Assembly: GCF_031157375.1 (NCBI RefSeq)
Contig: NZ_JAVIFV010000004.1
Span: 496,001-560,000, forward strand
Direction: 5' to 3'
Length of the DNA: 64,000 bases
Origin: Sphingosinicella sp. LHD-64
Lineage (GTDB): Bacteria; Pseudomonadota; Alphaproteobacteria; Sphingomonadales; Sphingomonadaceae
The position numbers and the translations under genes were made by a program. A model generated the notes under the pieces. It did not search any database and was not told the origin of the DNA. It saw only the letters and a list, made by a program, of their open reading frames with translations. Of this stretch, positions 14,465-51,095 are shown one piece after another. Every line of letters begins with the position of its first letter. Position 1 is the first letter of the stretch.

Positions 14465-14569
14465 CCCTCTCCCTGGCGGGGAGAGGGTTGGGGTGAGGGG
14501 GCTCTGAGTCTACGGATACCCCCACGCGCCGAGCCCCCTCACCCTGCCCTCTCCCCGCCGGGGAGAGGG
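14465..14569. repeat. palindromic repeat (GGGGAGAGGG family), full unit
   Basis: Same architecture as the unit in carA: an outer hairpin, a GGGGTGAGGGGG arm, a centre of about 30 nt, the inverted arm GCCCCCTCACCCTG and a terminal hairpin around CCGCCGG. It ends 12 nt from the stop codon of the DUF559 gene. The long stem-loop might also terminate transcripts from the left. Confidence 0.92.
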
Positions 14570-14581
14570 TTTGCACTGGCG

Positions 14582-14935
14582 TCATTCGCTGCGGTTGCGG
14601 GCGATCAGGAGTTCCCGGCGGATCGCTTCGAGGACGCCTTCGGTGTTGGCGAGGACGTCGTGGTTCCAGAAGCGAAGGACTCGATAGCCGTAGTTCTCGA
14701 TGATCGCGGTTCTGGCGGCGTCGCGGGCGGCGCCATGTTGCCCGCCGTCCAGTTCGATCGCCAGCCTCGCCGTGCGGCAGGCGAAGTCGGCGACGAAATT
14801 GTCGATCTGGAACTGGCGGACGAATTTCTCGCCTTCGAGCTGGCGAGCACGGAGATGATGCCACAGCCGTTCTTCAGCTTCTGTCCGGTTCGCGCGCAGC
14901 TTGCGCGCGATCGGAGTCAGGCGCTTGCTTCCCAA
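14582..14935 (-). CDS. DUF559 (Vsr-like) endonuclease-domain protein
   Basis: 117 aa protein of the DUF559 family, which shares the PD-(D/E)XK fold of the very-short-patch repair nuclease Vsr. Motifs are [19 protein letters not shown] (N-terminal helix), then [21 protein letters not shown] with the catalytic Asp/Glu positions, and [15 protein letters not shown]. The TTG start at 14935 has GAGGGGG (14942-14948) 7 nt upstream, and that box belongs to the adjacent palindromic repeat. The gene is bracketed by two repeat units in direct orientation and is antisense to the carAB operon. Substrate and role are unknown. Confidence 0.85.
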
Positions 14936-14941
14936 CTCAGT

Positions 14942-14978
14942 ACCCCCTCACCCAACCCTCTCCCCGACGGGGAGAGGG
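14942..14978. repeat. palindromic repeat (GGGGAGAGGG family), half unit
   Basis: A single half-unit: CCCCCTCACCCAA arm followed by the CCCTCTCCCCGACGGGGAGAGGG hairpin. It lies between the DUF559 start and carB, in the same orientation as the right half of the 14465-14569 unit. On the minus strand its arm serves as the likely ribosome-binding site of DUF559. Confidence 0.9.
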
Positions 14979-47327: not shown

Positions 47328-48333
47328 TGGCCGGCCCCCGCGGCACGTAGAAATAGCCGAGCCAGACGAGCAGCATGGCGCCGCCGACCGCGTAGCGGGT
47401 CATGTCGTCGGTGACGAGCTGGCGGCCGAAGCCTTCGAGCAGGCCGGCGACGAGCAGCATGACGACGACCCCCCCCATCACCACCGCGGCCGAGCGGCCG
47501 GAGTCCGCGGCGGCGGCGAGGCGGGTCTTCTCGCCCGGGAAGACCACGCTCCAGCCGATCCGGAATCCGGCCGCGCCGGCGAGCACGATCGCGAACAGCT
47601 CGGTCGAGCCGTGGATGATCAGCCAGCCGCCCATCTCGAACCCGAGATCGCGCGAGGCGAAGAGCGCGAGGATCGCGCCCAGCATCGTGCCGTTGTGGAC
47701 GATCAGCATCGCCGTCGGCACGCCGAAGGCGAAGCCGAGCGCGAAGCACATGATCGAGACCTGGCTGTTGTGGGTGAAGAGGTAGGTCGCGAAGACGCTC
47801 AGGCCGCTCGTGCCCTCGTCATGATAGAGCGTCTCGCGCAGCGCCGCGGCCGAGGCGCCGAAATCGCGGCCGCCCGCCAGCCCGGACGGCACGAAGCCGT
47901 CGTACCAGCTCGGATCGGAGGAAACGAGCATGTAGCCGGCGAGCGCGCCGATCAGCATGAGCAGGCCGGAGATCAAAGTCTCCTTCCAGAGCCCCCGAAC
48001 GGCCGCCGGCCAGTCGCGCGCGAAGAAGGCGCCGATCCGCGCGGCCGCGGTGGTACGTACGCCGTAGACGAAGAAATAGGCGCGGGCGCACAGGCCCTCG
48101 AGATAGTTGACGAGCTCGAGGTCGAGCGAGGTCTCGCGCGCCACCGAAAGGGCCGAGAGCGCGCCGCGATAGAGGATCGGGAGCGCGAGCAGGTCCTCGT
48201 CCGGAAGCTTGCGGAGCGATCCTTTCTCGGCGCGCGTCAATATGTCCTCCAGCCGGCGCCAGTCGGCCTCCCGCGCGGCCCGGAAGCGGCGGGTGTCGGC
48301 GGGGAGGAGGGCGATGTCGGGCGCGGTGCTCAC
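47320..48333 (-). CDS. stage II sporulation protein M-like membrane protein
   Basis: 337 aa SpoIIM-superfamily protein in a non-sporulating lineage. A cytosolic N-terminal region (1-110, including WRRLEDILTRAEKGSLRKLPDEDL) precedes about six transmembrane helices (112-335). HNSQVSIMCFALGFAFGVPTAMLIVHNGTMLGAI and GWLIIHGSTELFAIVLAGAAGF are the conserved core with its His-Gly-x-x-Glu. It overlaps both neighbours by 4-8 nt. Such genes regularly travel with MoxR, DUF58, DUF4129, DUF4350 and RDD genes, as here. Confidence 0.9.
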   Translation of the reverse strand: MSTAPDIALLPADTRRFRAAREADWRRLEDILTRAEKGSLRKLPDEDLLALPILYRGALSALSVARETSLDLELVNYLEGLCARAYFFVYGVRTTAAARIGAFFARDWPAAVRGLWKETLISGLLMLIGALAGYMLVSSDPSWYDGFVPSGLAGGRDFGASAAALRETLYHDEGTSGLSVFATYLFTHNSQVSIMCFALGFAFGVPTAMLIVHNGTMLGAILALFASRDLGFEMGGWLIIHGSTELFAIVLAGAAGFRIGWSVVFPGEKTRLAAAADSGRSAAVVMGGVVVMLLVAGLLEGFGRQLVTDDMTRYAVGGAMLLVWLGYFYVPRGPANG

Positions 48334-49643
48334 AGCAGCGCCCTCCGCTTGAGATCGAGATAGGCGTTGACCAGCGCCGGCCCCGCCTGGTCGCCGGTCG
48401 CCTCGACGAGATGGACGCCGAGATGGCGAAGCCTGGTGAGGACCAGCCGCCGCTCCCGCAGCAGCAGCGAGGCGGTGACGGCGCGGCTGATGTCGTCGGG
48501 CTCGGCCGGCTCGGCGGCGGTGAAGCCTTCCAACTCCTCGTCGCGCAGCACGACGAACAGGACGAGGTGGCGCTTCAGCAGCGTGCCGACGGATTCCAGC
48601 ATCAGCTCCGCGCTGATCGAGTCGGCGAACTCCGTGAAGATGACGATCAGCGAACGGCGAGCGAGACTCTCGGCGAGAGTCGCGATGCCGAGCGTGTAAT
48701 TGGTCTCATGGTCCGAATAGTCGATCCCGGCCGCCACCCGCTGAAGCATCGCGAAGGCGCGCGGGCCCGAGATCGGCTTGCTCGACGCACGCGGGCGGGA
48801 ATCGAAGGCGAACAGGCCGACGCGGTCGCCGTCCTTCAATGCGATATAGGCGGTGAGCAGGGCCGCCGAGACCGCACGGTCGATCCGCGGCATGCCGCCG
48901 TGCGGCTCGCACATCGCCCGGCCGGTATCGAGCGCCATCACGATGTTGTTGTTGCGCTCGGTGCGATATTCCTTGGCGACGAGATGGGTGTGGCGGGCCG
49001 ACGTCTTCCAGTCGATCGCCCGCCGGTCCATGCCCTGGCGGTAGTCGGCCAGCGCCTCGAACTCGGCGCCTTCGCCGACCTGCATCTGGGCGATCATGCC
49101 ATGGAGCGCATCGCGGTTGATGAGCCTGGGCGCCTGCTCGCGGACCGGGCGGATGTCGGGGCTGATCAGCACCGGCTGGTCGAGCGCGAGCTGGCGTTGC
49201 CTCCAGACCAGCCCGAGCGGACCCCGCCAGCGCGCCCAGACGGCGTCGAGCGTCGCCGTGCCCCGCCGCTCGGCCTTGAGCACGACCGCCGCCGTCCCGC
49301 CCGTCTTCGCCATCTCCGCCCCGGCGCGCCAGCCGAGCGGCGCCGAGACCGGGCCCGAGGCGCCGAGCGCGACCTCGACGGCGCCGGGTGCGGCTGCCTT
49401 GAAATGCGCGCGGACGAGAACCGCGAAACTCTCGCCGACGCCGACCGCGCCCGGACCCTCGCAGGCGACCTCGACGCTCCGCGCGCCGGCGCCGACGAAG
49501 ACATCGACCGCGGCGGCCGCGGCCAGCGCGACCAGCAGGGCGAGCCCCGCCGTCCAGAAGGCGGGAAAGAAGATGCCGATCAGCAGCGCCACCGGCGCCA
49601 CCGCGGCGGCGAGCAGCACGGCCAGGCGGGTCGGGTAGATCAT
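48330..49643 (-). CDS. DUF58-domain protein
   Basis: 437 aa. Two N-terminal transmembrane helices (about 7-50) precede a large domain with the DUF58 signature FEALADYRQGMDRRAIDWKTSARHTHLVAKEYR near residue 200. A von Willebrand A-like fold follows (NIVMALDTGRAM near 245, then GDRVGLFAFD near 280) that binds a metal through a MIDAS-like site. It is expected to work with the adjacent MoxR ATPase as a chaperone pair. ATG 49643 overlaps the DUF559 stop (ATGA), and GGGGAGGA from the neighbouring repeat serves as ribosome site, with only 4 nt spacing. Confidence 0.92.
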   Translation of the reverse strand: MIYPTRLAVLLAAAVAPVALLIGIFFPAFWTAGLALLVALAAAAAVDVFVGAGARSVEVACEGPGAVGVGESFAVLVRAHFKAAAPGAVEVALGASGPVSAPLGWRAGAEMAKTGGTAAVVLKAERRGTATLDAVWARWRGPLGLVWRQRQLALDQPVLISPDIRPVREQAPRLINRDALHGMIAQMQVGEGAEFEALADYRQGMDRRAIDWKTSARHTHLVAKEYRTERNNNIVMALDTGRAMCEPHGGMPRIDRAVSAALLTAYIALKDGDRVGLFAFDSRPRASSKPISGPRAFAMLQRVAAGIDYSDHETNYTLGIATLAESLARRSLIVIFTEFADSISAELMLESVGTLLKRHLVLFVVLRDEELEGFTAAEPAEPDDISRAVTASLLLRERRLVLTRLRHLGVHLVEATGDQAGPALVNAYLDLKRRALL

Positions 49644-50044
49644 AGTTCCTCCCCGGAACGGGGAGGGGGACCGCGACGCGCAGCGTCGTGGTGGAGGGGC
49701 CGGCACTGAGTCAGAATATGAGTGACCACCGCACCGATATCCTTCAGCACCTCGCGAGCCGGAATGCGCAGGGTGCGGAAACCCTGGTTCGCCAGCCATT
49801 CGTCGCGCGTGTGGTCGCGGACCGGCCGGCCCCCGCGATCATGTACTTCGCCATCGATCTCGATCGCCAGCTTCGCCTCCAGGCAGGCGAAGTCGAGTAC
49901 GAAAGGCCCTGCGGGATGCTGTTTTCGAAAGCGAAAGCCGGTCTGTCGTTTTCTCAACTCGCGCCAGAGCAGACCCTCGGGGAGGGTGAGATTTCTGCGC
50001 AGCTTGCGCGCCTTTCCAACGGCTGAGGCGGTTCCTCTCAGCAT
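49640..50044 (-). CDS. DUF559 (Vsr-like) endonuclease-domain protein inserted in MoxR operon
   Basis: 134 aa if ATG 50044 is used; in-frame ATGs at 50065 and 50074 and longer starts fall in repeat DNA. Motifs are VGKARKLRRNLTLPEGLLWRELRKR, FVLDFACLEAKLAIEIDGEVHD (PD-(D/E)XK-type acidic positions), RDEWLANQGFRTLRIPAREVL. The last 16 or so residues (HDAARRGPPPRSGEEL) are encoded by repeat 49648-49700. GGAGGGG (50054-50060), also repeat-derived, lies 9 nt upstream of the start. The gene sits between moxR and DUF58, where most relatives of this operon have nothing. Confidence 0.85.
   Translation of the reverse strand: MLRGTASAVGKARKLRRNLTLPEGLLWRELRKRQTGFRFRKQHPAGPFVLDFACLEAKLAIEIDGEVHDRGGRPVRDHTRDEWLANQGFRTLRIPAREVLKDIGAVVTHILTQCRPLHHDAARRGPPPRSGEEL
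49648..49700. repeat. palindromic repeat (CCTCCCCGG family), left copy
   Basis: 53 nt: a CCTCCCCGGAACGGGGAGG hairpin, GGGACC, a small stem GCGACGCGCAGCGTCGT and GGTGGAGGGGC. It matches the right copy (50053-50099) in inverted orientation. It encodes the DUF559 tail and overlaps the DUF58 ribosome-binding site. Confidence 0.92.
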
Positions 50045-50052
50045 TCGTGCCA

Positions 50053-50099
50053 GCCCCTCCACCATGCTTCGCATGGTCCCCCTCCCCGTACCGGGGAGG
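50053..50099. repeat. palindromic repeat (CCTCCCCGG family), right copy
   Basis: 47 nt: GCCCCTCCACC, the small stem ATGCTTCGCAT, GGTCCC and the CCTCCCCGTACCGGGGAGG hairpin. It is the inverted counterpart of 49648-49700, so the DUF559 gene lies between terminal inverted repeats. Its GGAGGGG on the minus strand is the probable DUF559 ribosome-binding site. Confidence 0.92.
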
Positions 50100-50117
50100 A
50101 ATTGGCGCGTTCCCGTC

Positions 50118-51070
<953 letters not shown>

Positions 51071-51095
<25 letters not shown>

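Follow-up and report, generated by a model that had tools for sequence, protein, structure and literature searches.

Within a stretch of 64,000 nucleotides from Sphingosinicella sp. LHD-64 (contig NZ_JAVIFV010000004.1, positions 496,001 to 560,000; the window, to whose first letter our coordinates refer), a small gene encoding a DUF559 protein lies between two inverted repeats in the middle of a moxR-DUF58 operon, and our analysis indicates that this gene and its repeats are probably a mobile element, in which a Vsr/EDxHD-like nuclease would act on the folded ends of the repeats and spread gene-bearing as well as gene-less copies. On the minus strand, the gene order is moxR, DUF559 and DUF58, as identified by Pfam matches to DUF559 (PF04480, E 6e-29), DUF58 and a MoxR-type AAA protein. 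The parts of the cassette and of its host operon are as follows.

49640-50044, minus strand: DUF559 gene, 134 codons, ATG at 50044 and stop at 49640
49703-50014, minus strand: DUF559 domain, with residues E, D, E-x-D-G and H of catalytic type
50054-50101, minus strand: 5' family-A repeat, with hairpin 1 at 50081-50099, hairpin 2 at 50061-50077 and the third purine block, GGAGGGG, at 50054-50060
49646-49699, plus strand: 3' family-A repeat in mirror orientation, with hairpin 1 at 49648-49666, hairpin 2 at 49670-49692 and the third block, GGAGGGG, at 49693-49699
48330-49643, minus strand: DUF58 gene of the host operon, ATG at 49643, its start overlapping the DUF559 stop
50118-51095, minus strand: moxR gene of the host operon, which overlaps DUF58 in 10 of the 12 relatives read

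An earlier note on this DNA had described the DUF559 gene as bracketed by inverted repeats, and two pairs of inverted arms bear this out, one of 27 nt at 96% (49646-49672 and 50075-50101) and one of 18 nt at 94% (49689-49706 and 50047-50064). Terminal inverted repeats of the kind that mark a classical transposon or a miniature inverted-repeat transposable element (MITE) are hence present. Read towards the gene, each family-A repeat is made of hairpin 1 (CCTCCCC..GGGGAGG), hairpin 2 and GGAGGGG, and the DNA fold z-scores, which consider Watson-Crick folding only, are -5.35 for the 5' and -3.53 for the 3' repeat. The whole element spans about 456 bp, from approximately 49646 to 50101; the inverted-repeat unit proposed in the note is real, but its right end lies two bases past the 50099 given there. 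The note was also correct on how the repeats are worked into the operon. The GGAGGGG of the 5' repeat is indeed found 9 nt upstream of the DUF559 start, a position from which it can, judging by the sequence, possibly double as the Shine-Dalgarno sequence of the gene. The 3' repeat serves as the C-terminal tail of DUF559 and as the ribosome-binding site of DUF58, with 49648-49699 encoding PLHHDAARRGPPPRSGEEL and GGGGAGG located four nt before the DUF58 ATG, and the DUF559 stop and DUF58 start overlap in the ATGA at 49640-49643.

That the cassette split a normally contiguous moxR-DUF58 pair, as the note had also proposed, could be evaluated in congeneric genomes. Among the 26 searched, a close MoxR orthologue was present in 15 (our genome included), and 13 junctions were read, leaving out those of G214 and G215, which were cut or broken. 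The cassette is found in our genome and in none of the 12 readable congeneric junctions, and in 10 of these 12 moxR runs directly into DUF58, its stop overlapping the DUF58 start. Of the remaining two junctions, that of G203 has a short linker without a repeat and that of G218 a lone palindrome of another repeat class, so that this site would have been hit at least twice or, alternatively, would have become repeat-bearing once in an ancestor shared with G218. Empty junctions therefore exist, the DUF559 gene is derived at this position, and its being an ancestral member of the operon is rejected.

DUF559 genes and their repeats in other genomes

All six DUF559 genes of the Sphingosinicella genome have inverted-repeat flanks. 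At the level of the order, where 95 loci (six of them our own) were drawn from the best-scoring DUF559 matches listed, some listed ones not being fetched, an inverted flank match of at least 15 was seen in 85/95 loci compared to 0/218 virtual genes used as control positions. Such matches are not due to chance, given that no virtual gene reached a flank score of 15 and that the flank-to-flank matches at the family-A loci L005 and L006, 27 and 34 nt long, have E values of 3e-8 and 5e-10. Beyond the order, in 67 loci that are likewise part of a match listing, inverted flanks were found in 22/33 loci from other orders of the class and in 18/34 from other classes, and in 1/134 controls. In the closest named relatives, 35/37 loci have inverted-repeat flanks, and a family-A repeat occupies at least one flank in 29/37 and both flanks in 21/37; those with family-A flanks include Sphingomonas, Novosphingobium, Erythrobacter, Sphingopyxis, Caulobacter, Brevundimonas, Chelatococcus, and a Rhizobiaceae bacterium. 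The peptides used to scan these named genomes included repeat-encoded ones, which biases the result towards family A, and the test was hence repeated with a profile of the domain only. The A-type loci chosen in this way had inverted-repeat flanks in 29/29 cases (our own locus included; 29 of 30 loci were read and one short locus was dropped), with the A motif in a flank in 22/29. DUF559 loci are related to each other, and none of these counts are independent. Weak single-copy DUF559 genes (E ~1e-12 to 1e-16), found in repeat-poor genomes, lie outside the 95 loci; many genomes of the genera g3 and g7 carry one such gene and almost no repeats, and these genes are possibly domesticated or belong to a different subfamily.

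Repeats with and without a DUF559 gene both exist, in our genome and in the named genomes, as far as family A is concerned. The nine exact family-A motifs of our genome are distributed over two cassettes (four motifs), two gene-less doublets (four motifs) and one single copy, and in the named genomes family-A repeats were present in 42/43 short matches, 26 of them as doublets. More generally, 81 palindromes were counted in our genome, and the 50 that were listed form 21 close pairs (<600 nt), of which two are DUF559 cassettes and 19 have a spacing of 67-111 nt, too short for a gene, which makes them gene-less. The seven of these 19 that were read in sequence are all mirror-oriented. In 34 distinct gene-less doublets of family A, the median spacer is 38.5 nt long. 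Some open with inner bases like those of cassettes, such as CACAGG in L140, L176 and L211, and L005 and L007 have the inner bases CTGGCACGAA in common, both being likenesses noted by eye only, with no chance estimate. Gene-less doublets insert independently, including in frame inside carA. In the linker of CarA, a class-D doublet is seen in 2 of 19 readable congeners (G217, locus L262, and G199, locus L271), 16/19 have no repeat, and the repeat found there in G198 (L264) is a different one; the doublets sit before the motif VVAIDYGSKRN.

The phylogeny of DUF559 is followed by the class of the repeats. Our maximum-likelihood tree included 132 DUF559 domains, with few columns and many weak forks, and repeat classes A to F were defined by regular expressions of our own, 17 of the 132 loci being dropped, before changes were counted on the tree, for want of one clear class. 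Even so delimited, the class changes 17 times on the tree compared to a mean of 63.8 in shuffled data (0/200 shuffles were as low), family A changes only twice, and the nearest protein neighbor in another genome has a repeat of the same class in 67/83 cases, with 23.5 expected. On the same tree, the DUF559 of Bacillus sp. 2B10 (L170) forms a tight cluster with its counterparts from Sphingomonas sp. Leaf10 and Leaf32, likely the result of contamination or recent transfer.

Gene and repeats also occur together. When the palindrome pattern was counted in 196 genomes of the order, the count correlated with DUF559 copy number (Spearman 0.81, and 0.77 at genus level), and DUF559 (E<=1e-18) was present in 56 of the 57 genomes with at least 10 palindromes. 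Of the genomes outside family f1, the nine in which DUF559 reaches this threshold all hold 14-65 palindromes, and the other 74 hold no more than 6. Elsewhere in the phylum the association is still strong, but exceptions make it looser than within the order: at least 10 palindromes were found in 40/47 genomes with DUF559 vs. 8/66 without in other orders of the class, and in 26/40 vs. 13/223 in other classes. The association extends to the type of repeat, as within family f1 at least four family-A repeats were counted in 34/46 genomes with an A-type gene vs. 8/30 with only other types. A reversed-pattern control gave no more than five matches per genome in the order and up to 54 in some genomes of the phylum. 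Based on this control within the order, on the co-occurrence with DUF559 and on the absence of flank matches in virtual genes, the possibility that the repeats are chance GC-rich palindromes is rejected. The functional association between DUF559 and the repeats that the note had argued for is supported by class matching and by the way A repeats track the A-type clade, and class matching and co-occurrence rule out that the repeats arrived later at random.

Repeat fold, nuclease and rival explanations

The repeats consist of a polypyrimidine hairpin (blocks 1 and 2) followed by a purine block that mirrors block 2. In the 121 of 264 flanks whose hairpin is perfect and lies at least 40 nt away from the domain, the mirror block is perfect in 87/121, compared to 2/121 when the region of another locus was used and 3 with shuffled regions. 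A direct-orientation control reached 36/121, a high value explained by some blocks being their own mirror; once these were removed by counting asymmetric blocks only, mirror orientation prevailed over direct in 68/96 vs. 17 flanks, and by 19 to 0 when distinct blocks were counted. A conserved three-strand fold would predict such mirror covariation from class to class, which would not be needed for an end recognized by its sequence only. The second loop of class A, 18-20 nt long, contains an extra hairpin, whose arms vary while their pairing is kept, and at least five stem pairs (the pattern itself fixing three) were present in 68 of 75 distinct inserts compared to 13 when shuffled.

The same three-block hairpin with a mirror purine block characterizes the BoxC/PIT/TM repeats, known since the 1990s and found in G/C-rich form in more than 260 genomes (Holder et al. 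2015, PMC4666352). Those of E. coli K-12 are intergenic, with 10 of 23 in five inverted pairs, and Holder et al. found no mobility functions around these E. coli repeats and left their origin open. The repeats studied here have the third block mirroring block 2 that defines that group. Unlike BoxC/PIT/TM repeats, their classes pair with DUF559 genes, and in classes A and C a further hairpin lies between blocks 2 and 3, so that the loop before a perfect third block measures 18-20 nt in class A and 22-32 nt in class C, outside the 1-6 nt of the BoxC/PIT/TM rule (PMC4666352), within which class D and many B and E repeats fall with 2-3 nt. In sequence design and covariation, the repeats of both cassette families of the window therefore appear to be of triplex type. 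The earlier note held these two families, A and B, to be different and unrelated; they are indeed distinct sequence classes, but their common mirror-block architecture places them in one superfamily, and the claim that they are unrelated is rejected.

As for the protein, the catalytic-type residues E, D, ExDG and H are kept in 130/132, 129/130, 130/130, 129/130, 130/130 and 129/130 sequences, and dN/dS is low (median 0.21, maximum 0.45, 89 pairs). With the AlphaFold model of DUF559 (pLDDT 86.6), Foldseek retrieved 3hrl (E 5.6e-6), the homing endonuclease I-Bth0305I (3r3p, E 1.6e-4, TM ~0.7) and the very-short-patch repair endonuclease Vsr (1vsr, E 8e-3), and profile matching gave 3hrl (E 2e-36) and 3r3p (E 1.6e-4). 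On residues and modeled fold, DUF559 is thus a putative PD-(D/E)XK nuclease of the Vsr/EDxHD type. A DUF559 gene has been placed in the EDxHD family (PMC9403480), and YcjD of E. coli was earlier placed in the PD-(D/E)XK superfamily (PMC1189080). Also, the DUF559 protein VsrA of Caulobacter (CCNA_02930) is required for the SOS response in cells without the ScmA methylase, for which its authors favor mismatch repair (PMC12907096). By analogy with this requirement, a DUF559 domain is probably able to damage DNA in vivo.

Taken as a mobile element, the unit would be a DUF559 gene between two mirror-oriented repeats of BoxC/PIT intrastrand-triplex type. When a strand is left exposed, as at a replication fork, the nuclease would recognize its folded end (hairpin and mirror block, with the extra hairpin in class A) and cut there; we infer that copying then proceeds by homing-like repair or by single-strand transposition, with cellular repair or recombination at the cut completing a copy-out or homing-like step, and that a new copy would be left elsewhere as a cassette if it has the gene, or as a MITE-like doublet if it does not. 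Here, a unit of ~456 bp would have entered the moxR-DUF58 junction, and operon translation could continue as the repeats supplied ribosome-binding sites on both sides. A nuclease acting on the folded repeat, together with repair, would explain the lasting match between a gene and its class of repeat, the doublets that carry no gene, and the small number of repeats found where the gene is missing. Our results suggest that DUF559 is the missing enzyme that spreads BoxC/PIT-type repeats.

A number of observations weigh against this explanation. There is no clear inverted repeat at 10/95 loci of the order, nor are there clear flanks at 11/33 loci of other orders and 16/34 of other classes, and pairs of flanks from different genomes match in 33%, which is due to the repeats forming one superfamily. 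Only TGA is common to both sides of the moxR cassette, and neither a target duplication nor an exact boundary emerged. As gene and ends would stay together in any mobile unit, their co-divergence is not in itself proof that the repeat is read by the enzyme. Within the order, G167 is the one exception with repeats and no DUF559, and fewer than 10 palindromes are found in 29/85 genomes with DUF559; beyond it, the 8/66 and 13/223 genomes already mentioned have repeats and no DUF559, and 7/47 and 14/40 have DUF559 with few repeats. Similarly, eight genomes have at least four A repeats and no A-type gene, and five have an A-type gene and no exact A repeat. These exceptions fit loss of either part and also allow for a nuclease that merely homes into repeats. 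Furthermore, at three loci of our genome (L218, L226 and L228) a class-B triplex doublet is enclosed in a longer MITE with ends like GGACCAATCGACATTC, its matched ends lying ~155 nt apart in L218 and L226, and doublets of this sort may perhaps have been spread by another enzyme. Lastly, the E. coli gene ycjD has repeats within 220 nt on its 3' side only.

One could propose, in line with the homing endonuclease being the nearest characterized fold in sequence and structure, that DUF559 is a selfish homing nuclease that invades repeats spread by other means and not dependent on it, by cutting a doublet, whereupon repair would copy its gene into the break using the repeats as homology arms. By eye, a cassette does resemble a doublet whose spacer has received a gene, and some genomes hold repeats without DUF559. 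This explanation is rather unlikely in our opinion, as genomes of the order without DUF559 have almost no repeats, repeat class follows the protein tree, and 11 of the 12 cassette-free junctions had no repeat to home into. I-Bth0305I itself, although similar in fold (PDB 3r3p), is an intron-type phage enzyme with added DNA-binding domains (PMC3943268), and the DUF559 studied here is a lone domain between repeats. No intron was seen at the cassette, where no search aimed at introns was made; the cassette sits between two host genes, and empty alleles exist. It is very improbable, on the other hand, that DUF559 is a host very-short-patch repair or restriction-like enzyme, as proposed for VsrA, next to which the repeats would be regulatory elements or instability hot spots by chance. 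Its fold is related to that of Vsr (1vsr), with which it shares a superfamily, and the SOS requirement reported in PMC12907096 is compatible with such a role; VsrA, which shows a DNA-damage phenotype in vivo, resembles the proteins studied here in its DUF559 domain, and differs in having been interpreted as a mismatch-repair enzyme. Unlike Vsr, however, DUF559 is here flanked by repeats and often multicopy, and a repair enzyme would not predict class-matched inverted repeats on both sides at many loci, several copies per genome, or insertion into operons.

The arrangement also recalls the REPtrons, in which a RAYT gene of the Y1 HUH type lies between palindromic REP repeats with a GTAG tag (Di Nocera et al. 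2013, PMC3733652). As in REPtrons, a small gene is found between inverted palindromic repeats, and gene-less copies, single or as inverted doublets resembling REPINs, are found elsewhere. If a tyrosine transposase of the RAYT/IS200 type, or another insertion sequence, moved the repeats as REP elements, DUF559 would be their cargo, and the three doublets read inside a MITE with separate terminal repeats would agree with this possibility, to which we give hardly any credence. The enzyme here is PD-(D/E)XK/Vsr-like and not a Y1 HUH transposase, and the triplex-type repeats lack the tag: GTAG or its complement CTAC occurred within 8 nt of only 3/200 hairpins (taken without the length rule of the mirror test), and CGTC/GACG of 4/200. 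The Y1/RAYT transposase (PF01797) is absent from our genome, and present in 38/196 genomes of the order and 13 of the 57 repeat-rich ones, in a search restricted, among insertion-sequence families, to Y1. Mobilization by RAYT is accordingly rejected.

At the level of its parts the mobile element appears to be new, as its architecture is REPtron-like, but enzyme and repeat fall outside REP/RAYT and the other mobile families tested, with the cutting of the repeat by DUF559 being how we read its action. No link between DUF559 nucleases and triplex repeats was found in the titles and openings of abstracts listed for DUF559, ycjD, BoxC and triplex, a search that mostly did not cover subscription journals, and prior notice is possible. 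In E. coli, the DUF559 gene ycjD (sapF-ycjD-fabI; L324 and L332) is followed by two BoxC-type repeats, one clear and the other degenerate; the protein adjoins such repeats like the proteins studied here, but within 220 nt the repeats are one-sided and the locus is fixed, whereas our cassettes are two-sided. Of 5426 genomes, 3363 have a place matching at least 80% of the sapC-yciW query, which contains ycjD, and in other lineages the eef operon is found in its stead (PMC12817139). Whether a class of bacterial mobile DNA exists in which a Vsr/EDxHD nuclease, with no transposase or recombinase, recognizes and multiplies intrastrand-triplex DNA, with DUF559 as the dedicated enzyme from sphingomonads to E. 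coli (YcjD) and with coevolving classes, is a broader proposal on which we are evenly divided. If correct, an orphan class of repeats and a domain of unknown function would explain each other, ycjD included, and spreading of DNA by a nuclease only, through an enzyme possibly reading non-B DNA, would stand beside that by transposases and RAYTs.

Other insertion sites and carriage

The window contains another DUF559 cassette, between carA and carB, which spans 14465-14978 and has an extra gene-less class-B doublet on its left side.

14609-14923, minus strand: DUF559 cassette with class-B repeats between carA and carB, the first of the window (domain only)
14465-14487 and 14547-14569: two class-B hairpins left of this cassette, forming a doublet
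14956-14978: class-B hairpin right of this cassette

Among 23 congeneric carB loci read (our own included), DUF559 was found only in G000, G197 and G213, and the carA-carB site is too variable to fix boundaries or a target duplication.

Relatives of two queries were found in 39 and 43 of 72,556 plasmid records, with no clean pair of full and empty sites among them, and a relative of one query in 2 of 50,697 phage records. On a plasmid of Sphingomonas parapaucimobilis (L328, 1986-2381), a DUF559 gene with a family-A repeat upstream is inserted in an NAD(P) transhydrogenase operon at a distance of one base from the following gene, an arrangement much like that of the window. On pSymB of Sinorhizobium meliloti (L326), DUF559 lies between the arms of a long inverted match (score 86, 96 nt), with a triplex-type hairpin on each side and an adjoining ISRm16 transposase gene. 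Outside Proteobacteria, DUF559 was seen in two metagenome-assembled genomes of Oscillospiraceae (L166 and L168), where family-A-like repeats are in the opposite orientation, with the third block outward.

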